Below, in pieces: positions 679 through 17,984 of a stretch of 40,894 nt of DNA. Both the position numbers and the translations under genes were made by a program. Position 1 is the stretch's first letter, and each line of letters opens with the position of its first letter. The stretch is from Anaerolineae bacterium (lineage in GTDB: Bacteria; Chloroflexota; Anaerolineae; CG2-30-64-16): positions 1 through 40,894 of the forward strand of contig JALOOB010000003.1 in NCBI GenBank assembly GCA_025454635.1, in the 5' to 3' direction. Under the pieces are notes generated by a model. The model saw nothing but the letters and a program-made list of their open reading frames with translations, made no database searches and was not told where the DNA came from.

Positions 679-730
679 GTAGGAGCGCCTACTGATAATT
701 ATTAGGCTCTCCTAAATAATTGATTTAGGA
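679..730. promoter_or_regulatory. Probable DtxR/MntR-family operator array
   Basis: Three TAGG-type half sites recur at about 23-base spacing just before the DtxR-family gene. TAGGAGCGCCTA at 680-691 is an imperfect dyad, TTAGGCTCTCCTAA at 702-715 is a perfect 5-4-5 dyad, and TTTAGGA lies at 724-730. TTAGG/CCTAA half sites are known for IdeR/DtxR family repressors. Autoregulation of the metal operon is therefore likely. Confidence 0.55.
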
Positions 731-738
731 TGAGCATT

Positions 739-1422: not shown

Positions 1423-2387
1423 AACGGAGCAATCGCCTCCCACTCTTGTTGCTGGTGGCGCTGGCATTGCTTGTCGCCGGCTGCGCGGCGCCCGCCGCGG
1501 CGTTGCCCGACGATCTCGCAGCCCGGCCAATTCGCGTGGTGACGACGGTCGGCATGGTGAGCGACGTCGTTCGCAATGTGGGCGGCGACCGCGTCGAAGT
1601 CCGCGCCCTCATGGGTCCGGGCATCGACCCGCACCAGTATAAGGCCAGCGAAGGCGATGTGCTCCGACTCGGCACCGCGGACATCGTCTTTTACAGCGGG
1701 CTCCACCTCGAGGCGAAAGTCGGCGAAGTGCTCGAGCGGATGGGCGACCGGATCAGGACGAAGGCCGTCACCGACGACATCGACCGCGCGTCGCTGCTCA
1801 AGCCGGCAGAATTCGAGGGTCAGTACGACCCGCACGTCTGGTTCGACGTTTCGCTCTGGGCGCAAACCGTCGACACCGTGCGCGACGCTTTAATCGAGCT
1901 TGACCCCCCGAGCGCGGACTACTACCGCGCCAACGCAGAGCGCTACCGCTCTGAACTGGAAGACCTGCACGAGTACGTCCGGCAGCAGGCGGCGCGCATC
2001 CCCGAGGATCAGCGCGTGCTCGTCACCGCGCACGATGCCTTCAACTACTTTGGCCGGGCCTACGGGTTCGAGGTGCGCGGCCTCCAGGGCATCAGCACTG
2101 CGGCCGAAGCCGGCACGTCCGACGTGCGCCAGCTTGCCGACTTCCTCGCGCAGCGCCAGATACGCGCGGTTTTTATCGAGTCATCCGTGCCCGTCCGCAA
2201 CGTTGAGGCCGTGCAGGCTGCGGTGCGCTCGCGCGGATGGGACATCGCCATCGGCGGCGAGCTATTCTCGGATGCGATGGGCAGCGAAGGCACGCCCGAA
2301 GGGACTTATATGGGCATGGTGCGCCACAACATCGACACGATTGTGAACGCATTGCTGGGCGAACAAGCGAACGTGGGTGAAGAATGA
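1419..2387 (+). CDS. TroA/MntA-type metal-binding lipoprotein of an ABC transporter
   Basis: Surface lipoprotein that captures Mn, Zn or Fe for the ABC importer encoded next to it. It has an N-terminal signal with lipobox LVAGC (Cys21). The cluster A-I ligand positions are all visible: His in DPHQYK, His in DPHVWFDV, Glu in GISTAAEAG and Asp in GELFSDAMG, followed by the family ending [14 protein letters not shown]. There is no His-rich loop of the kind seen in ZnuA, so Mn (or Fe) is more likely than Zn, in line with a DtxR-family regulator. The length of 322 residues is normal. The start ATG overlaps the regulator stop (ATGA) and has GGAGGA about 7 bases upstream. An upstream in-frame extension to 1338 lies inside the regulator gene and is not used. 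Confidence 0.92.
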
Positions 2388-3193
2388 ACGACAACAAACT
2401 GGCGATTGAAGCGACTGACTTAACGGTCGCTTATCAGGAGAAACCCGTCCTGTGGGACGTCGACCTCGAGGCCCCGGAGGGGGTGCTGATGGCCGTCGTC
2501 GGCCCGAACGGCGCGGGAAAGTCCACCTTGATGAAGACCATCCTCGGTCTGGTCCCCGCCGCCGCGGGACAGGTGCGCGTGTACGGGAAGCCCTACGAGC
2601 AGCAGCGCCATCTCGTCGGCTACGTGCCGCAGCGCGGCAGCGTGGACTGGGACTTCCCCACCGACGCGCTTGACGTGGTCACCATGGGCCTCTACCGTCG
2701 GCTCGGTTGGATGCGCCGGCCGGGCAAGGCGGAACGCGCCGCCGCGCTGGACGCGCTCGACCAGGTCGGCATGGCCGACTTCGCCGACCGGCAAATCAGC
2801 CAGCTTTCCGGTGGCCAGCAGCAGCGCGTTTTCCTGGCCCGCGCCCTCGTGCAGGATGCGCGTATTTACCTGATGGACGAGCCTTTCGCCGGCGTGGATG
2901 CCACGACCGAGCGCGCCATCATTGGTCTCCTCCGCGAGCTGCGCCGCCAGGGCAAAACGGTGCTCGTCGTCCACCACGACCTGCAAACCGTTCCCGAGTA
3001 CTTCGATTGGGTCACGTTGCTCAACGTGCGCCGCATCGCCAGCGGCCCCGTCGCTGAGGCGTTCACCGAGGACAACCTGCGCCGCGCCTATGGCGGCCGG
3101 ATCGCGTTTCTCAGAGAAAACGGGCAGCCGCCTGGCGCAGCCGACCACGAACCGCAGCTCGAGTTGTCGAGTGCCGGCGCGCTCAATCAATGA
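2384..3193 (+). CDS. Metal ABC transporter ATP-binding protein (MntB/TroB type)
   Basis: Cytoplasmic ATPase that powers the metal importer. Walker A is GPNGAGKST at residues 40-48, the signature LSGGQ at 141-145, Walker B IYLMDEP at 161-167, and the switch His lies in VVHHD. The segment [21 protein letters not shown] is characteristic of the Mn/Zn/Fe subfamily. The length of 269 residues is slightly above average because of a short tail after the ATPase fold. The start overlaps the lipoprotein stop by 4 bases, so translation is probably coupled. A 57-base gap with a small 7-bp hairpin (3207-3224) separates it from the first permease. Confidence 0.93.
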
Positions 3194-3250
3194 GTTCGAT
3201 CATACGCGACCGTATTCACGGTCGGCTGCGCTGCGCCTGGAGCGAATCTG

Positions 3251-4369
3251 ATGGATGTTGTATCGATATTCCGTGACCTCTTCACCGACTATACCCTGCG
3301 CACCGTCGCGTTAGGTTCGGCCCTGCTCGGTCTGGTCAGCGGCGCGTTAGGCGTCTTTGCCGTCCTCCGCCGCCAGAGCTTGCTCGGCGACGCGATCTCG
3401 CATGCGGCCCTACCCGGCGTGGCGCTCGCCTTTCTGCTGACGGGCAGCAAGCAGCCGCTCGTGCTTGCGCTGGGCGCGATTGTGGCAGGTTGGCTCGCGA
3501 CGGTGCTCGTCCTCCAGGTCACAGGCAACACCCGCATCAAGCCCGACGCCGCGCTGGGCATTGTTCTCGCCGTCTTTTTCGGCTTTGGCCTGCTGCTGCT
3601 CACCTTCATCCAACGCCTCCCCGATGCAGCCAAGGCCGGCCTCGACAAGTTCCTCTTCGGTCAGGCCGCCACCCTGCTCGGCCGCGACCTGGTCACCATG
3701 GCCGCGCTAGGCGGTTTCGCGCTCGCCCTGGTCCTGCTCTTCTGGAAAGAGTTTAAGCTGCTCACCTTCGATCCCGACTTCGGCGCCAGCCTGGGCTACC
3801 CCACGCGCTGGCTCGAAATCCTGCTCATCACGCTCATGGTCATCGCCATCGTCGTCGGCATCCAGACGGTCGGCGTCGTGCTGATGAGCGCGATGCTCGT
3901 GGCGCCTGCGGCCGCCGCCCGCCAGTGGACCGAGAAGCTCAACGTGATGGTGTTGCTCGCCGGTCTGTTCGGCGCAAGCGTCGGGCTTGCCGGCGCGCTG
4001 GTCAGCAGCATCGTGCCGCGCTTGCCCACCGGCCCCACCGTCGTTGTCTTCATGAGCGTAGTCGTGCTCTTCTCGCTGCTCTTTGCCCCGCGCCGCGGCC
4101 TGCTCGCTCGCGCTCGGCAGCGCCGCCGGCAGAAGTGGCAGTTCGCGCAGGAGGCGCTCGCCGTCCACCTGCTCCAGCATGAAGGCCAGCCGAACGAAGC
4201 GGTCGAGTCCGACGTGTCGCACGCGGGCCGCCATATGCAGTGGACCGCGGCCTTCGCCTCCGGCGTCGTCTCCCGCGCGGAGGACAACGACCTGCTCTCG
4301 CGCCGGCACGACCAGTTGGCGTTGACCGACAAGGGCCGCGCTCTCGCCCGCGAAGCGATGGAAAGGTGA
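3251..4369 (+). CDS. Metal ABC transporter permease with C-terminal winged-helix-like tail (first copy)
   Basis: Membrane subunit of the Mn/Zn/Fe importer (ABC-3 family). It has about eight or nine membrane helices in residues 15-280, including the family signatures FAVLRRQSLLGDAISHAALPG and VGIQTVGVVLMSAMLVAPAAAARQ. The membrane part ends at LLFAPRRG. It is followed by about 90 hydrophilic residues that end in LLSRRHDQLALTDKGRALAREAMER, a pattern like the wing of DtxR/MarR winged-helix domains. Such a tail is not part of the transport fold. GGAG lies 8 bases before ATG 3251. The neighbour downstream is a paralogue with the same tail, so the channel is probably a heterodimer. Confidence 0.9.
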   Translation: MDVVSIFRDLFTDYTLRTVALGSALLGLVSGALGVFAVLRRQSLLGDAISHAALPGVALAFLLTGSKQPLVLALGAIVAGWLATVLVLQVTGNTRIKPDAALGIVLAVFFGFGLLLLTFIQRLPDAAKAGLDKFLFGQAATLLGRDLVTMAALGGFALALVLLFWKEFKLLTFDPDFGASLGYPTRWLEILLITLMVIAIVVGIQTVGVVLMSAMLVAPAAAARQWTEKLNVMVLLAGLFGASVGLAGALVSSIVPRLPTGPTVVVFMSVVVLFSLLFAPRRGLLARARQRRRQKWQFAQEALAVHLLQHEGQPNEAVESDVSHAGRHMQWTAAFASGVVSRAEDNDLLSRRHDQLALTDKGRALAREAMER

Positions 4370-4370
4370 C

Positions 4371-4456
4371 GAACCACAAAGGATCAAAGAAGCGAAGTTG
4401 CGCTAAGGTGTCTCAGAACCTTCGTGTAACTTTGGTTCTTCGGTTCTTCGTGGTTA
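4371..4456. repeat. Intergenic hairpin repeat, TTCGTGGTT family
   Basis: The 102-base gap between the two permease genes is filled by an imperfect inverted repeat. It starts GAACCACAAAG and ends TTCTTCGTGGTT. Related ends occur at 20569-20650 and 39090-39159. It separates two genes of one operon and may modulate readthrough. Confidence 0.6.
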
Positions 4457-4471
4457 GGTGAGGTTCTTATT

Positions 4472-5581
4472 ATGTTGCAAGCTCAAATTGAGATTATCCT
4501 GATTGCTTCGGTCGTCGCGGCAAGCTGCGCTCTTGTGGGCAGCTTCCTCGTGCTGCGGCGCATGGCGCTGCTCTCCGACGCCATCAGCCACGCCATTCTC
4601 TTCGGCATCGTGCTCATGTTCTTCGTCGTGGAGAGCACCACGTCGCCGCTGCTCGTGATCGCCGCCACGCTCACCGGCGTGCTGACCGTGCTCCTCGTCG
4701 AGGCGCTGACCCGGACGCAGCTTGTCAAGGAGGATGCCGCCATCGGCCTCGTCTTCCCCTTGCTCTTCTCGCTTGGCGTCATCCTCATTACGCGCTACGC
4801 GGCGAACGTCCATCTCGACGTCGACGCCGTCCTGCTCGGCGAGATCGCGTTCGCTCCGTTCAGCCGGTTCGTCGTCTTCGGCCTGGACCTTGGCCCCCAG
4901 GCCCTCTGGCTCGCGCTCGGCGTCGGCGCGCTGAACCTCATCTTTATCCTGCTGTTCTGGAAGGAGCTAAAGCTCGCCACGTTCGATGCGGGCCTCGCCG
5001 CCGCGCTCGGCTTCTCGCCCGCGCTGATCCACTACGCGCTGATGACGCTCGTCTCCGTGACTGCGGTCAGTTCATTCGAGGCCGCGGGCACCGTGCTTGT
5101 GGTTGCGCTGATGATCGCGCCCCCCGCCGCCGCCTACCTCCTGACCGACCGCCTGCCGGTCATGCTTGGCCTCTCCGTCGGCATCGGCGTTCTGTCGGCC
5201 GTCACGGGCTTCGCCCTGGCGCGCGTCCTCGACGCCTCCATCGCCGGCAGCATGGCGACCATGACCGGCGTGGCATTTCTGCTCGCGCTGCTCTTCGCGC
5301 CGCAGCGCGGTCTCGTCCGCAAGTGGACGCGCGGCCGCTCACAGCGGCGCCAGTTCGCCGGCGAAATGCTCCTCGTCCACCTCTCGCAGCACGAGGCCGA
5401 TCCCGCGCTCGCAGCCGAGGCCACGATCGAGCACATGGCGCGGCATATGCGCTGGCCCGAAGGTTTCGGGCAAGACGTGGTGAAACACCTCGCGCGCGAA
5501 GGTTTCGTGTCTCGCGTCAATGGCTCCCTCGCTTTGACCCCCCTCGGCCGCGAGGTCGCGCAGAGCGTCATGCTGCGTTAG
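4472..5581 (+). CDS. Metal ABC transporter permease with C-terminal winged-helix-like tail (second copy)
   Basis: Second membrane subunit of the importer, ABC-3 family, 369 residues. The family signatures are SFLVLRRMALLSDAISHAIL near the N-terminus and the AGTVLVVALMIAPPAAAYLL helix. About eight membrane helices end near LLFAPQRG (residue ~280). The last ~85 residues resemble a winged helix: a helical segment with HMARHMRWPEGFG, then VVKHLAREGFVSR, then NGSLALTPLGREVA. The pattern L..G.V-G-L.LT..G..A is typical of winged-helix regulators. The start ATG has GTGAGG about 8 bases upstream. It is the last gene of the metal operon. Confidence 0.9.
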   Translation: MLQAQIEIILIASVVAASCALVGSFLVLRRMALLSDAISHAILFGIVLMFFVVESTTSPLLVIAATLTGVLTVLLVEALTRTQLVKEDAAIGLVFPLLFSLGVILITRYAANVHLDVDAVLLGEIAFAPFSRFVVFGLDLGPQALWLALGVGALNLIFILLFWKELKLATFDAGLAAALGFSPALIHYALMTLVSVTAVSSFEAAGTVLVVALMIAPPAAAYLLTDRLPVMLGLSVGIGVLSAVTGFALARVLDASIAGSMATMTGVAFLLALLFAPQRGLVRKWTRGRSQRRQFAGEMLLVHLSQHEADPALAAEATIEHMARHMRWPEGFGQDVVKHLAREGFVSRVNGSLALTPLGREVAQSVMLR

Positions 5582-5736: not shown

Positions 5737-5765
5737 TTGACACGCCCCCCTCCCTGTGCTACTCT
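5737..5765 (+). promoter_or_regulatory. Sigma-70-type promoter for the cobalamin operon
   Basis: TTGACA at 5737-5742, a 17-base spacer, and TACTCT at 5760-5765. The -35 is perfect and the -10 is weak. The predicted transcription start near 5772 is just before the riboswitch aptamer, which supports it. Confidence 0.5.
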
Positions 5766-5785
5766 AACCTTGTCATAATTGAATA

Positions 5786-5912
5786 GATTCGGTGGAGATC
5801 AGGGGAAAGTCCGGTGACCGGCGCATTGCGCCGCAGGCCGGCGCTGTCCCGCAACTGTAGGCTCGGAACTACGGTTCCAGAGCGAGCCAGAAAACCCTCC
5901 TTCGCCGGGTTC
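5786..5912 (+). ncRNA. Cobalamin riboswitch aptamer
   Basis: The core shows the B12-box-like sequence GCTGTCCCGCAACTGTAGGC at 5843-5862, preceded by GGGGAAAGTCCGGTGACCGG and followed by GAGCCAGAAAACCC. These match the conserved order of the cobalamin riboswitch (GGGAA, GGTG, GCTG-CCCGCAACTGT, GCCAGA-ACC). Boundaries are approximate. A strong intrinsic terminator lies 92 bases downstream, so the likely mechanism is B12-induced termination ahead of the uptake genes. Confidence 0.88.
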
Positions 5913-6003
5913 TCAACGACCTTCGAGGTAAAGGGAGTGTGAACCGCGTCTCTGCCGGCAGGGCCTTTTCACTGGTCGTCATCCTGGCAGATCACGCGCC
6001 GCT

Positions 6004-6036
6004 CCCCTTGCCACAGCCGGCAAGGGGTTTTTGTTT
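6004..6036 (+). terminator. Intrinsic terminator forming the riboswitch expression platform
   Basis: A perfect 9-bp stem, CCCCTTGCC (6004-6012) and GGCAAGGGG (6019-6027), with a 6-base loop, followed by TTTTTGTTTT. It lies between the aptamer and the first gene. It also argues that translation starts at 6080 and not at the upstream GTG at 5939. Confidence 0.85.
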
Positions 6037-6079
6037 TCCAGCCCCTGCGCGCTGTAACCCTATTATCGGGGACACACCG

Positions 6080-7099
6080 ATGCCCAATACGCGCAGATTC
6101 ACAGTCGCACTCCTGGTCGCCCTTTTGTTGACGGCGATAGCTTTGTCGCCGGCTGCTGCGGCCGATCCGGTCCAGACCGCGGTGCAGAAGGCCGTCCAGT
6201 GGCTCCATACCCAGCAGCTTAACGATGGCGGCTTTGGCAGCCCCGGCAGCGCCAAGTCGAACGCGGCGGTCACGTCCGACGTCGTCTACGCCCTCGCCCT
6301 CGCCGGCGAAAACGTCGACGGGCCCGAGTGGTCGAAGGGCGGCGTCAGCGCCCTGGATGCGCTCGCGAACCTGACCCCCGGCTATGCCGGCGCCGACGCA
6401 GGGCAGGCCGGCAAGATCGCGCGCGCAGTCGCGGCCGCCGGCGCCGATCCCCGCTCCTTCGGCGGCATGGACGTCCTGGCCGTCATTGAGGGGGCGTACG
6501 ATCCGGCAACGGGCAAGTATCACCCCAACTTCCTGTTCCGCCACGCGCTGGCGATGGAAGGCTTACGTGTTTCGGGTGAGCCCGTTCCCGCGCAGGCATA
6601 CGCGGCGCTGTCCGCAGGCCAACTCGCCGGCGGTGGCTGGGCATGGGTGTTCCCGAGCCCGAACACAACGCCCGTGGCGGACGCAGACACCACCGGCCGC
6701 GCCTTGCAAACGCTGGCCGCAGCTTCGCAGGGGGCGTGCAACACCGACTTCATCGCCGGTGCGGCCTATCTCGCCCGGACCCAGCGCGAAGATGCTGCGT
6801 GGGCCGACCTGCCGACGAAGAGTGTCAGCAACTCGAATTCGACCGCGCTGGCCGTTGGCGGGCTGCGCGCCATCGGCCGCAATCCCGAAACAGCGCCTTT
6901 CGTGAAGGGCGGGCGCACCGCCCTCCAGGCGCTCCTCTCCTTCCAGGAGCCAGGCGGCGCCTTCGTCTACATAGCGGAACCCGGCAAGGAGGAGTTGCGC
7001 ATCACCGCCACCAGTGATGCGCTCCTGGGTCTACTCCAGCCGTTGGGAACTGCCGGCCCGTGTCCGGCCACGTATCTGCCGCTGCTCCTTGCGCGCTAA
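6080..7099 (+). CDS. Secreted prenyltransferase/squalene-oxidase-repeat (alpha/alpha barrel) protein, intrinsic-factor alpha-domain-like
   Basis: 339 residues with a clear signal peptide (hydrophobic stretch LLVALLLTAIALSPAAAA), so it acts outside the membrane. The mature part has repeats of the alpha/alpha-toroid fold: AVQWLHTQQLNDGGFG, then DADTTGRALQTLAAA, then AYLARTQ, then SNSNSTALAVGGLRAIG, then ALLSFQEPGGAF, then TATSDALLGLL. This is the fold of terpene cyclases and prenyltransferases, and also of the alpha domain of intrinsic factor and transcobalamin. No DxDD or other cyclase acid motif was seen. Position directly behind a cobalamin riboswitch and before DUF4430 and ECF genes suggests it binds cobalamin or a relative. 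The binding role is an inference. Start ATG 6080 is chosen because the frame upstream overlaps the riboswitch terminator. Confidence 0.82.
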   Translation: MPNTRRFTVALLVALLLTAIALSPAAAADPVQTAVQKAVQWLHTQQLNDGGFGSPGSAKSNAAVTSDVVYALALAGENVDGPEWSKGGVSALDALANLTPGYAGADAGQAGKIARAVAAAGADPRSFGGMDVLAVIEGAYDPATGKYHPNFLFRHALAMEGLRVSGEPVPAQAYAALSAGQLAGGGWAWVFPSPNTTPVADADTTGRALQTLAAASQGACNTDFIAGAAYLARTQREDAAWADLPTKSVSNSNSTALAVGGLRAIGRNPETAPFVKGGRTALQALLSFQEPGGAFVYIAEPGKEELRITATSDALLGLLQPLGTAGPCPATYLPLLLAR

Positions 7100-7119
7100 T
7101 TCTTTAGGAGGAACCAACC

Positions 7120-7698
7120 ATGTCTCGTCGCTCTCTTATCGTCCTTCTTGCTGTCGCTGCGCTGCTCGCGCTCACCGCGACCGCCGCGTTCGCCCAAACC
7201 GGCGGAACCAAGCAGGTCGGCCTTGTCGTCACTTTCCCGGACGGCAAGACCCACACAGAGGTCGTGACCGTCCCCGCGGCCGCCACCGCCATCGACGCGC
7301 TTCGCGCCGCCAAGCTTACGGTGGTCACAAATGAAGGCTCGTTTGGGACCTCGCTCTGCAAGGTCAACGAGACCGGCTGCCCCGCGGACGACTGCTTCTG
7401 CGACCCGGCGAAGTTCTGGGCCTACTATCACCTGACCGGCAGCGCCTGGACCAGCGCGGCCGAAGGCGTCGGCGCATTCGTGCCCGCGAACGGGGCTGTC
7501 GAGGGCTTTGCCTGGAGCGGCTTCGACGACACCTTCAACCCGACGGTCCAGCCGCCCGTGTACACCTTCGAGCAACTGGTCTCGATGCAGAACCCGCCCG
7601 TGCCGATTCCCGAGCCCGCGACCCTGCTGCTGCTCGGCGGCGGCGTCGCTGCCCTCGCCGGTTGGGCGCGTCGCAAGCGCGGTCAGAAAGCGGCATAA
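7120..7698 (+). CDS. Secreted DUF4430-like protein with PEP-CTERM-like anchor
   Basis: 192 residues with a signal peptide (LIVLLAVAALLALTATAAFA). The mature domain resembles DUF4430, the family related to the beta domain of intrinsic factor/transcobalamin: VVTFPDGKTHTEVVTV, then AIDALRAAKL, then FWAYYHLTGSAW and a final GAVEGFAW. It carries the Cys-rich motif GCPADDCFC, which is repeated in the next gene. The C-terminus reads IPEPATLLLLGGGVAAL, a helix, then ARRKR, which is the layout of a PEP-CTERM sorting signal. AGGAGG lies 7 bases before ATG. With the preceding barrel protein it could form a two-part cobalamin binder. The DUF4430 assignment is by eye from sequence pattern and context. Confidence 0.8.
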   Translation: MSRRSLIVLLAVAALLALTATAAFAQTGGTKQVGLVVTFPDGKTHTEVVTVPAAATAIDALRAAKLTVVTNEGSFGTSLCKVNETGCPADDCFCDPAKFWAYYHLTGSAWTSAAEGVGAFVPANGAVEGFAWSGFDDTFNPTVQPPVYTFEQLVSMQNPPVPIPEPATLLLLGGGVAALAGWARRKRGQKAA

Positions 7699-7742
7699 AA
7701 GCCGCATAGCCGTTTGCCCGTCGCGCGTTGAATGCGAATTTG

Positions 7743-7784
7743 CGACAGAGGTCTCTCTGAGTTCTCGGAGACCTCTGTGGCAAG
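7743..7784. repeat. Palindromic repeat, CCACAGAGGTC family, next to a start codon
   Basis: Perfect 11-bp arms ACAGAGGTCTC (7745-7755) and GAGACCTCTGT (7768-7778), ending TGTGGCAAGCA, as in the copy at 19908-19982. It lies in the 88-base gap between the two DUF4430-like genes and ends 2 bases before the ATG at 7787, so it may affect translation of that gene. Confidence 0.65.
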
Positions 7785-7786
7785 CA

Positions 7787-9370
7787 ATGATCCTGGAAAC
7801 GCAACGCATGTTTTGTAAACCGGTCGTCCGCCGCTTCCTGATTCTCGCAGCGCTCTGCACCCTGGCGCTGCTCCTTGCCGCGCAACCCGCTCGCGCCGAG
7901 ACCGTGCCGCCTGGCGCCAACTCCCCTTCCGTCGTCATGGGGGCTTTCAAGCAGGGACAGGTAGCCACCGGGACAAACCGCGCGGCGCTCGTCGTCCGCT
8001 ACCGCGACGGCGGTGTGCAAACCCGCTGCGTCTCGTTCGAGGAAGATGAGATCGGCGGCGACGAGTTGCTCAACCTCACCGACCTCGCGCCCGTCTTCGG
8101 TTTCAACCTCGAGCTGTGCAGCATCAACGGCCAGGGCTGCCCGTCGGACGATTGCTTCTGCGAGTGCCCGTCCTTCCCCAACTGCGAGTACTGGGCCTAT
8201 TATCACCTTAAGAATGGTGCGTGGGAGTACTCCGAAGTGGGAGCAAGCGGCTACGGCGTCAAGAACGGCGACGTCGAGGGCTGGTCGTGGGGGCCGGGCG
8301 ACTTCACGCAGGGCACGCAGCCGCCCCTGATGACCTTCGACGAAATCTGCAATCCGCAGACCCAGGCCACCGCAACGCCCACTGCGACCGCAACACAGCA
8401 GTCCGGCGCTGCGCAAATCGCATTCTTCACCGCCCAGCCGGCCAGCGTGCAGCCACCTGCGTGCGCAACCTTGTCCTGGCAGACGACTAACGCGGCCACC
8501 GTGCTGCTCGACGGCGCACCCGTCGCCGCGCAGGGAACTCAGACCGTCTGTCCGACGAACACCCAGACCTATGCCCTCATCGCCGCCAGCGCCACCGGCC
8601 AGCAGGTGACGGGGCAGGTCACCGTGCAGGTGACGCCCGCAGCGGGTGGCTCGGGTCAAGGGACCCCGACCCCGACCGCCACATTCGCGGCTTCGGCCAC
8701 ACCGGCCTGGTCGCCTACCGCCGTGAACGTCATGCGCGCCGGAACGCCGACGCCCGCCTATATCACCCCATTCCCGCAGCCCATCGTCACCCGGCCCCCC
8801 GGCGCCATTCCGCAGCCGGGCCAGGTCATCGGCGGGCCTTCGCCCGACCCGAATTTCTCGCCGCTCGCGCCCGGCCAACTCGTTGGCGGCGTGCCGCTGG
8901 CGCCGACCGCCGAGGCCGCCGCGATCGGGCAACTCCCGCAGGCGCCGCAAGGTCCCGCGCCCACCGCCACCCGCTTTGTCTTTGCGCGTCCGCCCACCGA
9001 GACCCCGCGCCCGCGGCGCATCCTCGGCGCAGACGGCCGGCCCACCCCCACGCCGATCCTCGTCGCGCGCGCGGGCGGGGCATCCGGTTCGGACAGTTCC
9101 GCCGCGGAGACGGGCGGCCGCGCGCCCGGCGCAACCGGCGGCGGCAGCGCGCTGATCGCTAATGGCGCTTCCAGCGCCACTCGGGCATTCAGCCCGGACC
9201 TGCTACCGCAATATGCCGGATACCTGGCGACCTTGACCCTCCTGCTCGCCGTGGGTTGGCTCGTCCACCGCCGCCGCGCCGCGCAGCCGTCGACCGTTGC
9301 GCAGCCCGCGCGTGACGTCGAGCGCGGCAGCGACCGCTTTGCAAGCAGGGACGAACGGACGCCGCAGTAG
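7787..9370 (+). CDS. Large surface DUF4430-like protein with Ig-like domain, Thr/Pro linker and membrane anchor
   Basis: 527 residues. A signal peptide (FLILAALCTLALLLAAQPARA) is followed by a DUF4430-like domain at about residues 50-185. That domain holds CSINGQGCPSDDCFCECPS, EYWAYYHLKNGAWEY and NGDVEGWSWG, clearly paralogous to the preceding gene. A short Thr-rich linker leads to an Ig-like domain at about 205-285 (two Cys), then about 190 residues rich in Thr, Pro and Ala. One membrane helix near the C-terminus (YLATLTLLLAVGWLVHRRR) would anchor it. The start ATG 7787 lacks a good ribosome site; ATG 7808 is an alternative. The role is probably substrate capture on the cell surface for the ECF importer. 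Confidence 0.8.
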   Translation: MILETQRMFCKPVVRRFLILAALCTLALLLAAQPARAETVPPGANSPSVVMGAFKQGQVATGTNRAALVVRYRDGGVQTRCVSFEEDEIGGDELLNLTDLAPVFGFNLELCSINGQGCPSDDCFCECPSFPNCEYWAYYHLKNGAWEYSEVGASGYGVKNGDVEGWSWGPGDFTQGTQPPLMTFDEICNPQTQATATPTATATQQSGAAQIAFFTAQPASVQPPACATLSWQTTNAATVLLDGAPVAAQGTQTVCPTNTQTYALIAASATGQQVTGQVTVQVTPAAGGSGQGTPTPTATFAASATPAWSPTAVNVMRAGTPTPAYITPFPQPIVTRPPGAIPQPGQVIGGPSPDPNFSPLAPGQLVGGVPLAPTAEAAAIGQLPQAPQGPAPTATRFVFARPPTETPRPRRILGADGRPTPTPILVARAGGASGSDSSAAETGGRAPGATGGGSALIANGASSATRAFSPDLLPQYAGYLATLTLLLAVGWLVHRRRAAQPSTVAQPARDVERGSDRFASRDERTPQ

Positions 9371-9371
9371 C

Positions 9372-10448
9372 GTGACAAACGAGGACACCTTCCATCCTCT
9401 GGCCTGGACGGCCTGGCTGGCCGCGGCTGCGCTGCCGGCCCTTTCGACGCGCAATCCGCTCTACCTCAGCCTCGTCCTGATCGCAGTCCGCATCACTTAC
9501 ACCGCGCTGGGCCGCCGTAACCCGACCGCCCGCAGTTGGAGCGCGTTCGTGCGCCTCGGCGCGCTGATGTGGCTGCTCAGCATCCCCTTCGTCGTGCTCA
9601 TGTCGCACGGCGGCTCCATCGTCCTGTTCCGCCTGCCCCGTTCCTGGCCCATCATCGGCGGCCCCGTCACTTTGGAGGCGCTCCTGTACAGCTTCACCGG
9701 CGGCCTCGCGGTCATCGGCCTGCTGCTGATCTTCGCCACCTTCAACATCGCCGTCGACCAGGGTCGCCTGCTCCGCATGACGCCCGGCTTCCTCTACCAG
9801 GCGGGCGTCGTCACCGGCATCGCGGTTGCGTTCGTGCCGCAGATGGTCGCCACCTGGCAGTCGATCCGTGAGGCGCAGCAGGTGCGCGGGCACAAGGTGC
9901 GCGGCATCCGCGACCTGCTCCCCTTGCTTCTGCCGCTCCTCGTCACCGGCCTGGAGCGCGCCATGAACCTCGCGGAGTCGATGGAAGCGCGCGGTTTCGG
10001 TGGGCAAATCCTCGTCGCCACGCCACGCCAGCGCCTCGCCCACCAACTCGCGCTGCTCGGCGGGCTCGCGCTTGTCGGCCTCGGCCTCGCCGTCAACGGC
10101 TTCTGGCCCGACCTGCGCCTGATCGGCTCGCTGCAGCTTGCCGGCGGCATCCTGCTGATGCTGTGGAGCTTCTGGGACGTGGGCCGCCGCTCCCGGCGCA
10201 CGCGCTATCACCGGTGGCCGTGGAACCGCATTGACCGCCTCGTTGCCGCGATCGGCATCTTCGGCGCGGTCGCGTGGCTGGCGATCATGTTCGCCCGTCC
10301 TGAGTGGCTCCACTACTACCCGTACCCGCCCTACTCGCCCTGGCCGTCCTTCAACATCGTCGTGGGCCTCGTGCTGCTGCTGCTCGCCGCGCCGGGCTTG
10401 TTGATGCGGCCTCTCGAAACGGAAAGCGATCCCGCGGTAGCCGTATGA
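9372..10448 (+). CDS. ecfT: ECF transporter transmembrane component EcfT
   Basis: Membrane coupling subunit of an energy-coupling-factor vitamin importer, 358 residues. It has about six to eight hydrophobic helices. The EcfT coupling-helix motif with Ala-Arg-Gly is visible in GLERAMNLAESMEARGFGG (about residues 194-212), preceded by a first such helix around SIREAQQVRGHKVRG. The start is GTG 9372, one base after the stop of the DUF4430-like gene; the frame is open further upstream but that part overlaps the previous gene. Its stop overlaps the ATPase start (ATGA). The C-terminal helices beyond the core EcfT fold make it longer than the usual ~265 residues. Confidence 0.85.
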   Translation: MTNEDTFHPLAWTAWLAAAALPALSTRNPLYLSLVLIAVRITYTALGRRNPTARSWSAFVRLGALMWLLSIPFVVLMSHGGSIVLFRLPRSWPIIGGPVTLEALLYSFTGGLAVIGLLLIFATFNIAVDQGRLLRMTPGFLYQAGVVTGIAVAFVPQMVATWQSIREAQQVRGHKVRGIRDLLPLLLPLLVTGLERAMNLAESMEARGFGGQILVATPRQRLAHQLALLGGLALVGLGLAVNGFWPDLRLIGSLQLAGGILLMLWSFWDVGRRSRRTRYHRWPWNRIDRLVAAIGIFGAVAWLAIMFARPEWLHYYPYPPYSPWPSFNIVVGLVLLLLAAPGLLMRPLETESDPAVAV

Positions 10449-12166
10449 TCGACCTTCGCCACGTCACCTACACCTACCCGGACCAGGCGCAGCCTGCCCT
10501 GGCCGACTTCAGCGTCTCCCTCGCGCAGGGCGAATTCGTCCTCGTCGTGGGACCATCCGGCTCGGGCAAGTCCACCTTCCTCCGCAGCCTCAACGGCCTC
10601 GCGCCCCATTTCTACGGTGGCAAGTGGTCGGGCCACATCGACGTCGGCGGCCGCAACCCGGTTGAGCGCGCGCCGCGCGGCATGGCCGACCTCGTCGGCT
10701 TCGTCTTCCAGGACCCCGAGGCGCAGTTCGTGGTCGACACGGTGGAGGACGAGCTTGCCTTTGCGATGGAGAACTTCGCGGTCCCGCCGGCCACCATGCG
10801 CAAGCGCATCGAAGAAGCGCTCGACCAGATGGGCATCGCCCATCTTCGCCAGCGTCGCATCGGCGCCCTCTCCGGCGGCGAGAAGCAGCGCGTCGCGGTC
10901 GCGGCTGTGCTCGCGCTCCAGCCGCAGATCCTCGTCCTCGACGAGCCCACCTCGCAGCTCGACCCCCAGGCCGCGGAGGAAGTGCTCGTCGCGCTCCGCC
11001 AGCTTAACGAGGACCAGGGCCTAACGGTGATTATCAGCGAACACCGGCTCGAACGCGTCGCGCAGTACGTCGACCGCGTTCTCTACTTGCCAGCGCTCGG
11101 CGCCGCGCCCATCCTCGACGACCCTCGCGCGGTCATGGGCCAATTGCCCCTCGTCCCGCCGCTTGTCGAGCTTGGCCGCGCGCTCGGCTGGCAGCCCCTC
11201 CCGCTCACCATCAAGGAAGGCCGCCCCTTTGCTCGCCGCATCAGCGGCCAACTCGCCGCAGCAGTCGCCGGCGGTCAGTCTCGTCCTGAGCGGAGCGAAT
11301 TGCCGCAATCCGCTGCGGAGGGGCATCCTGAGCGGATGGGCGACCCACAGGGTCGCACGCAGTCGAAGGACGCCAAGCTGATCCCGCAGGGATCAGCCAT
11401 TTCCGTCCGCGACGCGCACTTCGCCTACCACGGCCACCGCGCGCTGCGTGGCGTTACGTTCGACGCGCGGCCCGGCGAGTTCGTCGCGCTCATGGGACGC
11501 AACGGCTCGGGCAAGAGCACCCTGCTCAAATGCATCGTCGGCTTGCTCAAACAGGACGAAGGGCGGATCACCGTGGGCGGGCTGGATGTCCGCACCGCAC
11601 CCTCCGACGACGTCATCCGGCTCGTCGGCTACGTCCCGCAGCATCCCGGCTCGCTCCTCTTCCGCGACTCGCTCCTCGCCGAGCTGGCCTTCACGCGCAA
11701 GGGCCACGGCATGCCGCAGGACGAACCGGCCGACCTCGCCCTGCTCGAACGGCTGGGCCTCGCTTCCGTCGCCCGTCGCGACCCGCGCGACCTCTCCGGC
11801 GGCGAGCAGCAGCGCGCCGCGCTCGCAGCCATCCTCGTCGCGCAGCCGCAGATCATCCTGCTCGACGAGCCGACCCGCGGCCTCGACTACGTCCAGAAGC
11901 GCAACCTGGCCGCGCTTTTGTTGAGCTTCAAGGCGGAGGGCCGCACGGTCGTCATGGCAACCCACGACGTCGAGCTCGCCGCCGCCTGCGCGGATCGCGT
12001 CGTCCTCATGGGCGAGGGTCAGATCGTCGTCGACGGCCCGGCGCGCGACGTTATGTCCGACTCGCAGGTCTTCGCGTCGCAGATCAACAAGCTCTTCCGC
12101 GACCCGAACTATCTCGTCGTCGATGATGTGCTCCGCGCGCTTGGGCGAGAGCCCGCCGCGCCGTAG
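10445..12166 (+). CDS. Fused energy-coupling-factor ATPase (two EcfA domains in one chain)
   Basis: 573 residues with two complete ABC ATPase domains. Domain 1 has Walker A GPSGSGKST (36-44), LSGGEKQR, and Walker B ILVLDEPTSQLDP. Domain 2 has Walker A GRNGSGKST (about 351-359), LSGGEQQR, and IILLDEPTRGLDY. The two domains correspond to EcfA and EcfA' that power ECF importers. The linker (about residues 277-312) is low in hydrophobics and is encoded by a copy of the dispersed CCTGAGCGGA/AGTCGAAGGA repeat, so a repeat became in-frame protein. The ATG at 10445 overlaps the EcfT stop. The gene lies downstream of the cobalamin riboswitch and is followed by the S component. Confidence 0.92.
   Translation: MIDLRHVTYTYPDQAQPALADFSVSLAQGEFVLVVGPSGSGKSTFLRSLNGLAPHFYGGKWSGHIDVGGRNPVERAPRGMADLVGFVFQDPEAQFVVDTVEDELAFAMENFAVPPATMRKRIEEALDQMGIAHLRQRRIGALSGGEKQRVAVAAVLALQPQILVLDEPTSQLDPQAAEEVLVALRQLNEDQGLTVIISEHRLERVAQYVDRVLYLPALGAAPILDDPRAVMGQLPLVPPLVELGRALGWQPLPLTIKEGRPFARRISGQLAAAVAGGQSRPERSELPQSAAEGHPERMGDPQGRTQSKDAKLIPQGSAISVRDAHFAYHGHRALRGVTFDARPGEFVALMGRNGSGKSTLLKCIVGLLKQDEGRITVGGLDVRTAPSDDVIRLVGYVPQHPGSLLFRDSLLAELAFTRKGHGMPQDEPADLALLERLGLASVARRDPRDLSGGEQQRAALAAILVAQPQIILLDEPTRGLDYVQKRNLAALLLSFKAEGRTVVMATHDVELAAACADRVVLMGEGQIVVDGPARDVMSDSQVFASQINKLFRDPNYLVVDDVLRALGREPAAP
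11273..11375 (+). repeat. Dispersed CCTGAGCGGAGCG...AGTCGAAGGACG repeat inside the EcfA gene
   Basis: The sequence TCCTGAGCGGAGCGAATTG, then GCATCCTGAGCGGATGG, then GCAGTCGAAGGACGCC matches elements at 22690-22740 and 34440-34530. It is read through in frame and encodes the linker between the two ATPase domains. Confidence 0.65.
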
Positions 12167-12169
12167 CAT

Positions 12170-12285
12170 CGCCCGGCCATGAATGGGCCGGGCTACACCG
12201 CGGCGCCCCATAATTGGGGCTGACCGCGTTCGCAAGCCCGGTTCACCGGGCGCAGCCTGGTAGCTCGGCCATTCATGGCCGGGCG
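12170..12285. repeat. Short element with 17-bp perfect terminal inverted repeats
   Basis: CGCCCGGCCATGAATGG at 12170-12186 is the exact reverse complement of CCATTCATGGCCGGGCG at 12269-12285. The unit of 116 bases fills almost the whole gap between the ECF ATPase and S-component genes and carries no reading frame. It looks like a non-autonomous mobile or REP-like element. Confidence 0.65.
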
Positions 12286-12305
12286 GCATCGAACGGTACA
12301 CACCT

Positions 12306-13121
12306 ATGCGTTCCCAAACACTCATCTCCGCCGCCATCATGACCGTCGCCAGCCTCATCGGCCTCGGCGCGTTCCTCTACCCGTTTTTCCTCCCATCCCT
12401 CGCGGCCGAGGGCATGGCCGCGCACTCGAACGACGCGCCACTGCTCACCGTCGTGCTGCTCGCGCTCTGCATGACCGCCGTGCTCTCCAACCTCGCCGCG
12501 CGGCAGATGACCAGCAAGCTGGTCGCCGTGCTCGGCATCCTCGTCGCCATTAGCGCCGTGCTGCGCGCCATTCCCGGCCCCGCGGGCTTCAACGCCATCT
12601 TCTTCCTCCCCATCCTCGCCGGCTACGCGTACGGCCCCACCTTCGGCTTCCTGCTCGGCGCGCTCTCCCTGCTCGTCTCCGCGTTCATCGGCGGCGGCGT
12701 CGGCCCCTGGCTCCCGTACCAGATGTTCGCCACCGGCTGGATGGGCCTGCTCTCCGGCTTCCTGCCCAAGTTCCCGCTACACCCGCGCTGGGAGGCGATC
12801 CTGCTCGCCGCCTGGGGCGGGATCATGGGCCTCATCTTCGGCGCGATCATGAATATCTGGTTTTGGCCGTTCATGCAAGGGGGGGCCGGGGTCACGGCGG
12901 AAGGCGGGACATACGAGGCGGGCATGAGCGCGTGGCAGGCGCTCCGCAACTACGCCGTCTTCTACGTCGTCACATCGCTCTGGTGGGATGCCGCGCGCGC
13001 CGCGGGGAATGCTTTACTGATTCTGCTGTTTGGAAGCGCGGTGCTGCGCGTGTTGAGAAGGTTCAAAAAGCGGTTCGGGTTTGAGCTCGCGCCGGTGGTG
13101 ACGCGCTTAACCGTCCGCTGA
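12306..13121 (+). CDS. ECF transporter substrate-binding (S) component, probably cobalamin-specific
   Basis: 271 residues, a multi-helix membrane protein. The helices start with SAAIMTVASLIGLGAFLYPFF. The segment FFLPILAGYAYGPTFGFLLGALSLLVSAFIGGGVGPWLPYQMFATGWMGLLSG matches the pattern of CbrT-like and related S components. S components bind the vitamin and dock on EcfT. The last ~35 residues are charged and cytoplasmic. Specificity for cobalamin is inferred from the riboswitch that starts the gene cluster; no binding residues were assigned. No clear ribosome site precedes ATG 12306, and the short inverted-repeat element lies just upstream. Confidence 0.82.
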   Translation: MRSQTLISAAIMTVASLIGLGAFLYPFFLPSLAAEGMAAHSNDAPLLTVVLLALCMTAVLSNLAARQMTSKLVAVLGILVAISAVLRAIPGPAGFNAIFFLPILAGYAYGPTFGFLLGALSLLVSAFIGGGVGPWLPYQMFATGWMGLLSGFLPKFPLHPRWEAILLAAWGGIMGLIFGAIMNIWFWPFMQGGAGVTAEGGTYEAGMSAWQALRNYAVFYVVTSLWWDAARAAGNALLILLFGSAVLRVLRRFKKRFGFELAPVVTRLTVR

Positions 13122-13359: not shown

Positions 13360-16300
13360 CTACCAGCCGTCGGTGACGGCGCAGCGGAAGCCGAAGCTGA
13401 AGTCGCCGTTCGCCGGATAGTCGCCGCCGCTGCGGCTGTACACGGTGTGCGCCCCCGTGAGGCTGTAGGGCGACTCCCAACTGCCGCCCCGGATCACCCT
13501 GAACTGTCCCCACGATGGCCCCTGTGGGTTATCGCGCGGGCTCTCCACGTAGTACCAGTCGGCGTACCAGTCGTTCACCCACTCGCCCACGTTCCCCACC
13601 ATGTTTAACGCGCCGTAGAGACTGGCGCCAAGAGGATACCAGGTCGCCGGCACTGTATCGCCCACGCACGGGCCCCGGTCCACGTCCCAGTAGTTTGCCA
13701 GGTCGCATGTGATCTCCTGGTCGCCCCACGGATACGCGCGGGTGTCGGATGCGCCGCGTGCCGCCTTCTCCCACTCCGCCTCCGTAGGTAACCGGAGGCC
13801 CGCCCACTCGCAGTACCGCCTCGCCCGCTCCCAGTCAACCCAGACCACCGGGAAGTCTGCGTACGCGGGGTTGTCGTAGTAACTCGTCCGGGTGTACGAG
13901 TCCAGTCGTTTCGGCGGTTCGCAGTAGTTGGCCGCAACGCAGCGAGCATACTGCGCGTTCGTCACCTCCACCCGGTCGATGTTGTAGTCGTAGAGTTGCG
14001 CCGTGTGCAGCGGCAGCTCGTCAGACCTGGTGCAGCGCGCGCTCGGGTTGGTCTGGTCGCAGCCCATCTGGAACGGGCCGCCCGCAACGAAGACCATATC
14101 TCGGGTTGTAAACGACCATACAGGCCCCAGCCGGACCGCATCGTGCTCGTCACGAGCCTGCGCCTGCCAGTAGTAGGTCGCATTGCCGTCCACCCGCCCC
14201 GGATAACACCTCTCGTATGGGCCGGAGCAAACCACCAGGTCGGGCGTAGGATCGTCCTTCTCCATGTACACGTCGTAGGTCACCACATCATCGTCGACGT
14301 CGCCGCCCGTCCAGGAGAGCCAGAAGTGCGAGAGGAGGCCAGTCGCGCCGTCAGCCGGCCCGTCTTCCCCACCCAGTGAGGGTATGTTCGGCGCATGGTT
14401 GCTATTTGAGCCGAATGCCAGGGTCCAAGGCGGACCTGATATCTCAGCGCCATGCGCGTCGCGCGCCGTCACCATCCAGGTCATTTCAGGTCGCGTTCCA
14501 GCCCAGTATTGGAACCGGCACACCGGTTCGCTAATGTCAACGCAGAGGTGGGCCAATTGCGAGGGTCCAAGTTGGGGGCCAGGGCTGATGTCCGAGTACA
14601 CATTATAGACCACCGCGTCGCCATCTGGGTCGCCGCCCGTCCAGCGGAGTTCCACGTCCCAGGGCTGGTTGCCCGATCCGTGGGCTGGCGTTGGGGACGA
14701 TGGCTCGAAGGGGGCCGAGTTAAAGGATGTCCCGGTGCGGAAGCTCCAAATTGGCCCAGCCGTCGTCTCGTCGCTGCCGTCCCTGGCGACCAGCCGCCAG
14801 TAATAGTACGTGTTCGGCTCCAGCAATCCCTCCGGGGCGAATGTCGTGCCGGCGAAGTCGCTGGCGACCTTCACGCTCGGATACGGCACATCCGCTTCCA
14901 GATATACGTCGTAGGTTAGCGTGTCGCCGTCGTCTGGGTCGCTGCCGGTCCAGGAAAGGAACGTGTCCCTTGGCCTGTCCACCGCGTCATCGAGCGGCCG
15001 CGGTCCGGATGCCTTGTCGGGTGGATGGTTGCCCAGCAGCCGCCACTCCGCTAGCGGCCACTCCACCTTGAACTCGATCGCTTCCCAGTCGGCGATATCC
15101 TTCCCCAGCGCTTCGAACTTGGCGCCCACCCCCACTTTCAGCCCGCCGTACAGCCCCACGTCCAGACCCTCGATCGCGAGCGTCGCCTGCGCCCGGCCGT
15201 AGGCCTTCGGCTTCACGTACGGCCCAACCAGACCGTAGAGCTTGAAGGAGATGTCTGGCCCAATAGAAAGTTCGACCCATGCGGAGAACTCGGGCTTGGG
15301 GGGCGTAAACTCGAACGAGGTGTTGTACTCATAGATAGGAGACCACCCCCCGTTTTCATAGATGCAGCCGACGCGCAAGTGCGCCTTCTGGCTTAGCCCG
15401 GCCGAGATGGAAACGCCCACCTCGCCCTCGAGGCTCAGGTTCACCTCCATCTCGGGCGTAAACACCACGGGCACGGGTCCCACCCACAGCGTGACCGGGC
15501 TGAACGTGTATTTGGCGATTGGGACGTCGCAATCCTCGCAAAACTCCTTGCTGACACCCCACTTGACCCCCAGGCTCGCCTCTTCGTCGGCGGTCACGGC
15601 GAACAGGATCTTCTGCACTGTGAACAATCGCATATCGAGACCGAAGTCTGCGGAGAGGTCGAGCGCAAGCGAGCCGTCGGCCGAGATCTGGTCGTTCTTG
15701 GTGTCTCTGTCGAGGTCCTTGTCATAGAGCACCACATCTTTTACGCTGAACTGGAACTTCAGGCCGTCGGGAGAAGTGACGGGGCTGACTCCGCGCGCAT
15801 AGGTCGCACTTCGCACTCCGGACGGCGTGAGGGGCATGCTCAGGTGGGCCGAGCCGGACTCAATAGCGTCTTCGAGCGTGGCCGGTTCGGTCTGGACGAC
15901 GATCTCGCCACCGACGTTCGTGACGGAGGTGACTTTACGCAGCAGGCCTTCGGGCGCCGCATCAGAGGGGGCGGCCACGACGACGTCACCGACGTCGACC
16001 CGGGTGAGCTCGGGCGTGGACTGGCTAAAGGTCAACGCGCCCGTGTCGGAAACCGACTCGAGGTGCTCGGTGGTGGCGCCGGTGAGCGGCTCCGTCGTGT
16101 CAGGAATGACCGGCGGAGTTGGAGGGAGGGGTTCCCTGACCAGGGGCAGGAACACGGTGTTCTTGCCCGCAGAGGCCAGGATCGAGGCGACGTTGGAAAT
16201 GGGGGAAGCATTGCCCGCCTCATCAAAAGTCTTAATCGCAAAGTAACAGATCTCGCCGCCGTTCAAGTCGTCGACCGTCATGCTTTGGACGCTGTAGGGT

Positions 16301-16617
16301 TCAGAGGGTGACGGCTCGCCGGTGACTTGGCTCGCGCTGCTCCAACTTTCCTCATCGATCGGCGAGGCAGCGTAGCGGACGTCATAGCCAGTAGCCTGTC
16401 CGGCGTTGCCATCGTCGCCTGGCGCGATCCAGTACAGTATGACCGTGCCGTAGGGGCCGGTAGCTACAGTGTCGAGGTTGATAATCGGGCTGGGTGGAAC
16501 CACATCCAAAACCTCTGGCGCGACGCGCTGGCCGAAGGCGGGCGCGGTGGGTAACATCAGCAGGGCGACCAAGGTCAGGAGGGACAGGAGCGAGCGAGAA
16601 GCAAAGTGCCGGGACAT
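13360..16617 (-). CDS. Large secreted protein with Fn3-like repeats and a C-terminal FGE-sulfatase-fold domain
   Basis: 1085 residues. A signal peptide (LLSLLTLVALLMLPTAPAFG) leads into a fibronectin type III domain (residues ~38-130). A beta-rich region of about 370 residues without recognised relatives follows. Then come three Fn3-like repeats (about 530-850), each with a pattern like WTGGDPDGDAVVYNVY and a closing tWSF. The last ~240 residues have the formylglycine-generating-enzyme fold: FVAGGPFQMGC, VEVTNAQYARCV, LRLPTEAEWEKAARG, NMVGNVGEWVNDW, VIRGGSW and FGFRCA. The catalytic CxxxxC pair of true FGE is absent (YSRSGGD in its place), so enzyme activity is unlikely. GAGGAGGT lies 5 bases before ATG. 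It is transcribed alone and converges on the ECF cluster. Confidence 0.85.
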   Translation of the reverse strand: MSRHFASRSLLSLLTLVALLMLPTAPAFGQRVAPEVLDVVPPSPIINLDTVATGPYGTVILYWIAPGDDGNAGQATGYDVRYAASPIDEESWSSASQVTGEPSPSEPYSVQSMTVDDLNGGEICYFAIKTFDEAGNASPISNVASILASAGKNTVFLPLVREPLPPTPPVIPDTTEPLTGATTEHLESVSDTGALTFSQSTPELTRVDVGDVVVAAPSDAAPEGLLRKVTSVTNVGGEIVVQTEPATLEDAIESGSAHLSMPLTPSGVRSATYARGVSPVTSPDGLKFQFSVKDVVLYDKDLDRDTKNDQISADGSLALDLSADFGLDMRLFTVQKILFAVTADEEASLGVKWGVSKEFCEDCDVPIAKYTFSPVTLWVGPVPVVFTPEMEVNLSLEGEVGVSISAGLSQKAHLRVGCIYENGGWSPIYEYNTSFEFTPPKPEFSAWVELSIGPDISFKLYGLVGPYVKPKAYGRAQATLAIEGLDVGLYGGLKVGVGAKFEALGKDIADWEAIEFKVEWPLAEWRLLGNHPPDKASGPRPLDDAVDRPRDTFLSWTGSDPDDGDTLTYDVYLEADVPYPSVKVASDFAGTTFAPEGLLEPNTYYYWRLVARDGSDETTAGPIWSFRTGTSFNSAPFEPSSPTPAHGSGNQPWDVELRWTGGDPDGDAVVYNVYSDISPGPQLGPSQLAHLCVDISEPVCRFQYWAGTRPEMTWMVTARDAHGAEISGPPWTLAFGSNSNHAPNIPSLGGEDGPADGATGLLSHFWLSWTGGDVDDDVVTYDVYMEKDDPTPDLVVCSGPYERCYPGRVDGNATYYWQAQARDEHDAVRLGPVWSFTTRDMVFVAGGPFQMGCDQTNPSARCTRSDELPLHTAQLYDYNIDRVEVTNAQYARCVAANYCEPPKRLDSYTRTSYYDNPAYADFPVVWVDWERARRYCEWAGLRLPTEAEWEKAARGASDTRAYPWGDQEITCDLANYWDVDRGPCVGDTVPATWYPLGASLYGALNMVGNVGEWVNDWYADWYYVESPRDNPQGPSWGQFRVIRGGSWESPYSLTGAHTVYSRSGGDYPANGDFSFGFRCAVTDGW

Positions 16618-17054: not shown

Positions 17055-17984
17055 TTAATAATTGTCCTCGTCAGTCAGCCACTCCTCCGCGTACGCCCGC
17101 GCATCCGCGGCCGGGATCGCAAACCCGATCCCCTGCGCCAGCGGATCCCCCTCGATTGTCGTCTCGCGGATAATCAGCGTCACGATCCCGACCAGCCGCC
17201 CGCGCTCGTCCACCAGTGCGCCCCCTGAGTTGCCCCGGTTGATCGCCGCATCCGTCTGAATTAGCCCGCTCACCGTCGCGTCCTCGTCCACATACACCCG
17301 CCGGTCCAGCCCGCTCACGATCCCCGTCGTCACGCTGTTGCGCAGGTTGCCCAGCGGGCTCCCGATCACCGCCACCTCGTCCCCCACCCGCAGCTTCGTC
17401 GAGTCGCCCCACGGCAGCTTTTCGAACCGCCAGTCCCACTCGATCTTGATCAGCGCCAGGTCGACGATCCCGTCCCCTGCGATGTAGCGCGCCGGCGCAT
17501 TCCGGCCGTTCGCCATCGTCACGATCAGGTCCTGCGCCGCGCCCGCCACGTGCTCGTTCGTCAGCACGTACCCGCGTGAGTCGATAATCACGCCCGACCC
17601 CCACACCAACTCCTCCGAAGTCGTGTTGTTGATGCCGGGGATCGACCGCGCGTTGATGACGGTCACGATGGAGGGATTGGCCCGCTCCACGATCTCCGCA
17701 AGGGACGGCAAGGGGGTCGCGGTCGGTTCAAGTGTCGGGCTGGGTTCGGGTGTCGCGGTGGGCGGCGCAGGGGTAGCGGTCGGGGGTGGCAGCGTCGGGA
17801 TCACCAGCGCGACGGTTGCGGTGGGCGGCGGCGCGGTGAAGGTGGCGGTGGGCAGGACCGTATCAGCCCGCGCCACAGTTGCCGGCGCAGGTCGCTCCGT
17901 CAGGACCCACATCATGCCGGCCCCGACCGCGCCGCCGATCAGCGCCACGAGAAACACCTCGAACCACCGCCCGACTCTGTTCAC
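17055..17984 (-). CDS. HtrA/DegP-like membrane-anchored trypsin-type serine protease, no PDZ domain
   Basis: 309 residues. An N-terminal membrane helix (FEVFLVALIGGAVGAGMMWV) anchors it, followed by about 60 residues rich in Pro and Thr as a spacer across the cell wall, then a trypsin-like domain from about residue 95. The catalytic triad is His145 (LTNEHVAG), Asp175 (GIVDLALIKI) and Ser253 (INRGNSGGAL). The protein ends soon after the protease fold, without the PDZ domain usual in HtrA. The start is GTG 17984, which overlaps the selD stop by 4 bases (GTGA). The frame is open far upstream, but that part is an antisense-free shadow of selD and is rejected. Co-translation with selD is likely; a functional link is not evident. 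Confidence 0.88.
   Translation of the reverse strand: MNRVGRWFEVFLVALIGGAVGAGMMWVLTERPAPATVARADTVLPTATFTAPPPTATVALVIPTLPPPTATPAPPTATPEPSPTLEPTATPLPSLAEIVERANPSIVTVINARSIPGINNTTSEELVWGSGVIIDSRGYVLTNEHVAGAAQDLIVTMANGRNAPARYIAGDGIVDLALIKIEWDWRFEKLPWGDSTKLRVGDEVAVIGSPLGNLRNSVTTGIVSGLDRRVYVDEDATVSGLIQTDAAINRGNSGGALVDERGRLVGIVTLIIRETTIEGDPLAQGIGFAIPAADARAYAEEWLTDEDNY

Follow-up and report, generated by a model that had tools for sequence, protein, structure and literature searches.

A riboswitch-associated operon in Chloroflexota that probably encodes cobalamin capture and import with transcobalamin-like parts

A 40,894-nt stretch of an Anaerolineae genome bin (phylum Chloroflexota; contig JALOOB010000003.1), referred to here as the window, carries an operon at positions 5737–13121 in which a cobalamin riboswitch is followed by genes for a secreted alpha/alpha barrel, two secreted beta-grasp proteins (SLBB-1 and SLBB-2) and a complete energy-coupling factor (ECF) transporter, comprising EcfT, two EcfA domains and an S component, with all parts on the plus strand. 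We consider it likely, with a probability of about 0.8, that this operon is a system for scavenging cobalamin (B12) or related corrinoids, in which capture outside the cell and import are jointly controlled by the riboswitch. The source bin comprises 4.55 Mb in 549 contigs and is 77% complete.

The riboswitch aptamer (5779–5917) matches the Rfam model RF00174 over its full length, with a covariance score of 32.3 bits against a gathering score of 31.5, and is the sole Rfam match in the window. The leader ends in an intrinsic terminator (6004–6037), formed by a 9-bp stem at 6004–6027 and a run of T, TTTTTGTTTT, with a folding energy of -18.8 kcal/mol (z -2.4), and this terminator would switch in a ligand-dependent manner. 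The riboswitch core is conserved between the window and its relatives in a DNA alignment (row L111 disregarded), and no second cobalamin riboswitch was found in the 77% of the genome represented by the bin. The operon's riboswitch is likewise the only one found in five other genomes (G144, G200, G168, G017 and G146). The initial annotation, made from the sequence alone, had described a cobalamin riboswitch with a terminator, and after it a secreted barrel, two secreted DUF4430-like proteins and the ECF genes (EcfT, double EcfA, S component); the covariance model and the relatives bear out the riboswitch, and domain matches confirm the gene order.

A broader survey of such neighbourhoods, which the same annotation had called for, revealed that the arrangement is conserved. 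A search with the SCO2322 family found matches in 36 of 301 Chloroflexota genomes, and a search of the named genome collection with a beta-grasp alignment (A5) yielded 67 loci, nearly all from Chloroflexota, together with one from Acidimicrobiales and three from Actinomycetota. The barrel and the ECF genes are present on the same strand in 45 of these 67 loci, and most of the others run off the end of their contig. Relatives were chosen by the beta-grasp domain alone and not by the riboswitch; nevertheless, 39 of 43 distinct neighbourhoods (drawn from 20 + 24 sources, with an orphan locus of the source genome, L051, excluded) contain a same-strand cobalamin-type riboswitch that passes the gathering score, at a distance of 139–511 nt (median 244) ahead of whichever barrel or beta-grasp domain comes first. 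This first domain is a barrel in 35 of the 39 and a beta-grasp–barrel fusion in the remaining 4. The exceptions are L040, L042, L080 and L131, the last of which lies on a contig cut just upstream. As whole genomes contain only 0–4 cobalamin riboswitches (17 genomes checked), our own arithmetic puts the chance expectation for 44 stretches of one kilobase at about 0.01, and the association of riboswitch and operon is thus more than chance. One genome, G128, has the operon (L042, L110) and no detectable cobalamin riboswitch. In the contigs of two Actinomycetota operons (L131 and L132), the operon adjoins an RNase P RNA gene.

SLBB-1 (7120–7698) contains a beta-grasp domain at 7207–7590 and SLBB-2 (7787–9370) a related one at 7976–8359, and the two proteins share 35% identity. 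Both are distant relatives of the NCBIfam SCO2322 family (4.6e-7 and 3.3e-8, respectively), and the match of SLBB-2 reaches 34 bits against a curated cut-off of 85. The domain of SLBB-2 was modelled with AlphaFold2 together with 23 relatives (predicted local distance difference test, pLDDT, of 95.8) and compared by Foldseek with 350,542 PDB chains. Its 13 best matches, all at a probability of 0.98–1.00, consist of two chains of the bacterial structure 3u7z and eleven transcobalamin or haptocorrin chains, among which is the human transcobalamin beta domain on its own with B12 (5np4), whereas from rank 14 downward only unrelated folds appear, at probabilities of 0.57 or less. By sequence, a beta-grasp profile gave no meaningful match in the PDB.

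The other half of the animal carriers would be represented by the barrel (6080–7099), which bears a signal peptide and matches the toroid model PF13243 (2e-8) and, distantly, the NCBIfam family SCO2321 (1.7e-24; 86 bits against a curated cut-off of 300). A squalene-cyclase-type toroid match to PF13243 is found in the barrels of all 24 aligned relatives, and squalene–hopene cyclases are the best matches of the barrel in both Pfam and PDB sequences, the latter with the barrel profile A1 at 3.7e-40. This raises the alternative that the barrel acts as an exported enzyme of the terpene-cyclase type, that the beta-grasp proteins are unrelated adhesins and that the riboswitch serves the ECF genes only. 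We regard this as very improbable, because the barrel family (alignment A1) has D-x-[DN]-T where the cyclases have their catalytic DXDD acid motif, the proteins carry signal peptides, and the riboswitch directly precedes the barrel and beta-grasp genes. Moreover, barrels of relatives match the animal model PF01122 (Cobalamin_bind): those of L052 (28.3 bits) and L041 (25.9 bits) exceed its cut-off, and for L052 it outscores the cyclase models. The window's own barrel gave no PF01122 match over the cut-off, and a search of the 301 genomes with this model returned a single match, in G192.

A further argument against the cyclase alternative, and in favour of a carrier, is that many genomes encode barrel and beta-grasp domains as fusions, with either domain first. 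At L058, L059 and L060, a single chain comprises one barrel and, after it, one beta-grasp domain, as in intrinsic factor; two barrels with one beta-grasp domain are found at L044 and L049, and the beta-grasp domain precedes the barrel on one chain at L042 and others. An alignment in which fusions were mixed with single beta-grasp chains (A3) was misaligned and was dropped. The L058 fusion was modelled with a pLDDT of 88.5, and its 14 best PDB matches are transcobalamin, haptocorrin and intrinsic factor (E 1.9e-10 to 1.2e-7), over 439–469 aligned columns that cover both domains; the first cyclase appears at rank 15. The likeness to the two halves of intrinsic factor that the initial annotation had suggested is therefore upheld by the fold of SLBB-2, by the L058 fusion and by the sister barrels that pass PF01122, whereas its description of the two beta-grasp proteins as DUF4430-like holds by fold and not by sequence.

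The conserved cysteines of the beta-grasp domain bear on a different question. Across 113 related domains, eight cysteines are kept or lost pairwise with few exceptions (18/125, 48/60, 55/62 and 64/70), and since loss in pairs is the signature of disulfides, this points to four disulfides, with a pairing that is itself deduced from the sequences. Three of these pairs would lie between the helix and the central strand, the region that matches the B12-contacting hairpin of transcobalamin (PMC1796856). A role in holding a metal cluster was set aside because the cysteines disappear in pairs.

A further alternative is that the cargo is cobalt or a different metal and not B12, as the conserved cysteines could hint at a metal site, cobalamin riboswitches control cobalt transporters too, and a ZnuABC/DtxR-type metal uptake operon (ZnuA and DtxR-type genes, 730–5581) lies just upstream. 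In addition, EcfT (9372–10448), a CbiQ-like transmembrane coupling protein, matches PF02361 (8.4e-8), named "Cobalt transport protein", a name that is common to EcfT proteins generally. It is followed by a double ATPase, EcfA–EcfA' (10445–12166), with two ABC_tran domains and a match to TIGR04520 (ECF_ATPase) at 9e-112. We nevertheless find a metal importer improbable: the S component (12306–13121) belongs to PF12822 (ECF_trnsprt, 4.9e-14) and not to CbiM, the transcobalamin-type fold is not known to take part in cobalt uptake, and the cysteines vanish pairwise, with six of the eight lacking in the fusions L044 and L049. By sequence, the S component has a weak PDB match to the membrane protein 5d0y (E 0.005).

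If the cargo is a corrinoid, it need not be cobalamin itself. The true ligand might be a corrinoid other than complete cobalamin, such as cobinamide or a cobamide that carries a different lower base, so that the operon would serve as a salvage route for precursors. Many corrinoids trigger cobalamin riboswitches, according to part of a published account (PMC9600662), the source bin is rich in corrinoid-protein domains, and passages of Burroughs et al. (2007; PMC1796856) leave open "B12 or its precursors". The same passages describe the B12-contacting hairpin of the transcobalamin beta domain as touching the lower base, a contact that would give complete forms the advantage; nothing else here speaks against this alternative, which we judge possible but considerably less likely than not. 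With respect to demand, 17 B12-binding domains over the cut-off were counted in the source bin, where CbiC was not found, a combination that suits a B12 importer; the MetH activation domain was also not found in this 77% complete bin.

Several observations weigh against the assignment to B12 scavenging. The window's own riboswitch lies just 0.8 bit over the threshold, a marginal score that is backed by the same placement in 39 of 43 relatives. Fold E-values for the isolated beta-grasp domain range from 0.02 to 0.13, with none below 0.001, although the selectivity of the SLBB-2 model for transcobalamin and haptocorrin is plain despite these modest values. PF14478 (DUF4430) gave no match in the window proteins or the source genome, and among 24 relatives matched one, at E 0.21; the kinship to DUF4430 and the transcobalamin C-domain emerges from the predicted structure only. 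The overall root-mean-square deviation of the L058 model is ~23 Å, and the relative domain placing of the animal carriers is not reproduced, which may be expected in a ligand-free model. Finally, missing B12 synthesis genes such as CbiC are weak evidence in a bin that is 77% complete.

The modes of attachment suggest how a B12 scavenging system of this kind may be organized. SLBB-1 ends in a PEP-CTERM sorting tail (~7603–7680; PF07589, 2.8e-6), an anchor that recurs in more than 12 relatives, and SLBB-2 continues into a long Pro/Thr-rich stalk and a C-terminal membrane helix. An exosortase was found in all eight genomes with an SLBB-1-type protein; none was found in the source bin, possibly owing to its 77% completeness. 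Many relatives' barrels end in an LPxTG-like or membrane tail, whereas the window's barrel has no C-terminal anchor and would be soluble unless a partner holds it. The source genome also encodes an orphan third beta-grasp protein with a PEP-CTERM tail (L051:8685-9386, G000:C247), the domain of which is 61% identical to that of SLBB-2, with no barrel, ECF genes or riboswitch nearby.

We propose that when B12 is scarce the terminator would remain unformed, as judged from the riboswitch type, and the operon would be expressed. The soluble barrel would then be exported, and the two beta-grasp proteins would be held at the surface by the PEP-CTERM tail of SLBB-1 and by the stalk and membrane helix of SLBB-2. 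An anchored beta-grasp chain would catch B12, and the barrel would subsequently clamp it. Likewise, B12 in the animal carriers is bound initially by the beta domain and only afterwards enclosed by the alpha domain, and the two domains associate in a B12-dependent manner (PMC11107200). From this clamp the ligand would pass to the S component, and EcfT–EcfAA' would carry out its import. Cobalamin binding, the ligand-driven joining of two chains and the order of hand-over are what we infer from these parts. When intrinsic factor is cleaved into IF30 and IF20, tight B12 binding and receptor recognition are kept (PMC6257451), which provides a precedent for function as separate halves. In its most specific form, the proposal is of a two-chain, ligand-assembled B12 receptor in Chloroflexota. 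The soluble barrel would stay with the cell solely through the B12 that it clamps onto anchored beta-grasp chains, and the two beta-grasp chains, with their exosortase-type and membrane-type anchors, would form a relay handing B12 from the surface to the S component; fusion of these parts in sister lineages yields the architecture of intrinsic factor. This form is tentative, and we give it slightly less than an even chance.

Transcobalamin, haptocorrin and intrinsic factor share with the operon an alpha/alpha barrel and a beta-grasp domain, and provide the best PDB fold matches for both halves. They differ in being one chain, in contrast to the window's separate genes with two beta-grasp chains, and in receptor-mediated uptake as opposed to an ECF transporter; surface anchors and paired cysteines in the hairpin region are features of the window's proteins. 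Among ECF importers, ECF-CbrT has, to our knowledge, no secreted binding protein. It resembles the present system in ECF-type B12 import (PMC5997447), whereas the window's S component has no PDB sequence match to CbrT. BtuG, BtuH and DUF4465 proteins of Bacteroides are known from the literature to capture B12 at the surface ahead of transport, and are other proteins tied to outer-membrane transport by BtuB.

The general idea is not new. As described in parts of Burroughs et al. (2007; PMC1796856), bacterial transcobalamin-like SLBB domains occur in fusions with toroids, alongside CbiO/CbiQ genes and a further SLBB paralogue, and B12 scavenging and a transfer to animals were proposed. The "bacterial equivalent" of intrinsic factor claimed by the initial annotation is thus supported by folds, fusions and neighbourhood, and had in essence been predicted for other bacteria. 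The window's operon shares with those systems a secreted SLBB domain and toroid, an SLBB paralogue, and an ECF-type ATPase and T subunit, and differs in that its domains fall outside PF14478 by sequence; the scope of that work, in the same parts, is mainly low-GC Gram-positives, planctomycetes and archaea, with no mention there of Chloroflexota or riboswitches. For Herpetosiphon aurantiacus, a regulon study of 2013 noted a B12 transporter under riboswitch control (PMC3766115), which our results suggest is the operon at L104. NCBIfam states no function for SCO2321 and SCO2322, and no functional study of SCO2321–2324 or DUF4430 was found in the literature. As far as our searches show, the split-chain Chloroflexota form, the near-universal riboswitch, the subfamily outside PF14478, the cysteine pairs, the exosortase-type and membrane anchors, and the structural support with natural fusions are new. 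With the operon, a probable bacterial counterpart to the carriers that humans use for B12 becomes open to direct experiment, in a phylum that includes cultivable species (Herpetosiphon aurantiacus DSM 785, L104). The operon also bears on the origin of animal intrinsic factor and transcobalamin, puts a functional name on offer for the SCO2321 and SCO2322 families, and suggests a route by which an extracellular catching device may be added to an ECF importer.

Other genes in the window were also recorded. The upstream metal uptake operon (plus strand) encodes a DtxR-type regulator, a ZnuA-like binding protein, an ATPase and two permeases, both of which seem to bear an unusual C-terminal winged-helix-like extension. 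Tandem MerR regulators with B12-binding_2 and B12-binding domains (30078–31025 and 31206–32219, plus strand) are CarH-like, with the motifs W-x9-EH in the first and D-x-H-x2-G in the second, and are possibly adenosylcobalamin light sensors. A large secreted protein (13360–16617, minus strand) combines fibronectin-type stretches with a C-terminal formylglycine-generating-enzyme-like domain. A SelD-like gene with AIRS domains (17984–19024, minus strand), the start of which open reading frame callers place too late, reads through an in-frame TGA in its N-terminal part, in VKLTSLSACAG-U-ASKL, at the catalytic Cys/Sec place, and its product is probably a selenocysteine-containing SelD.

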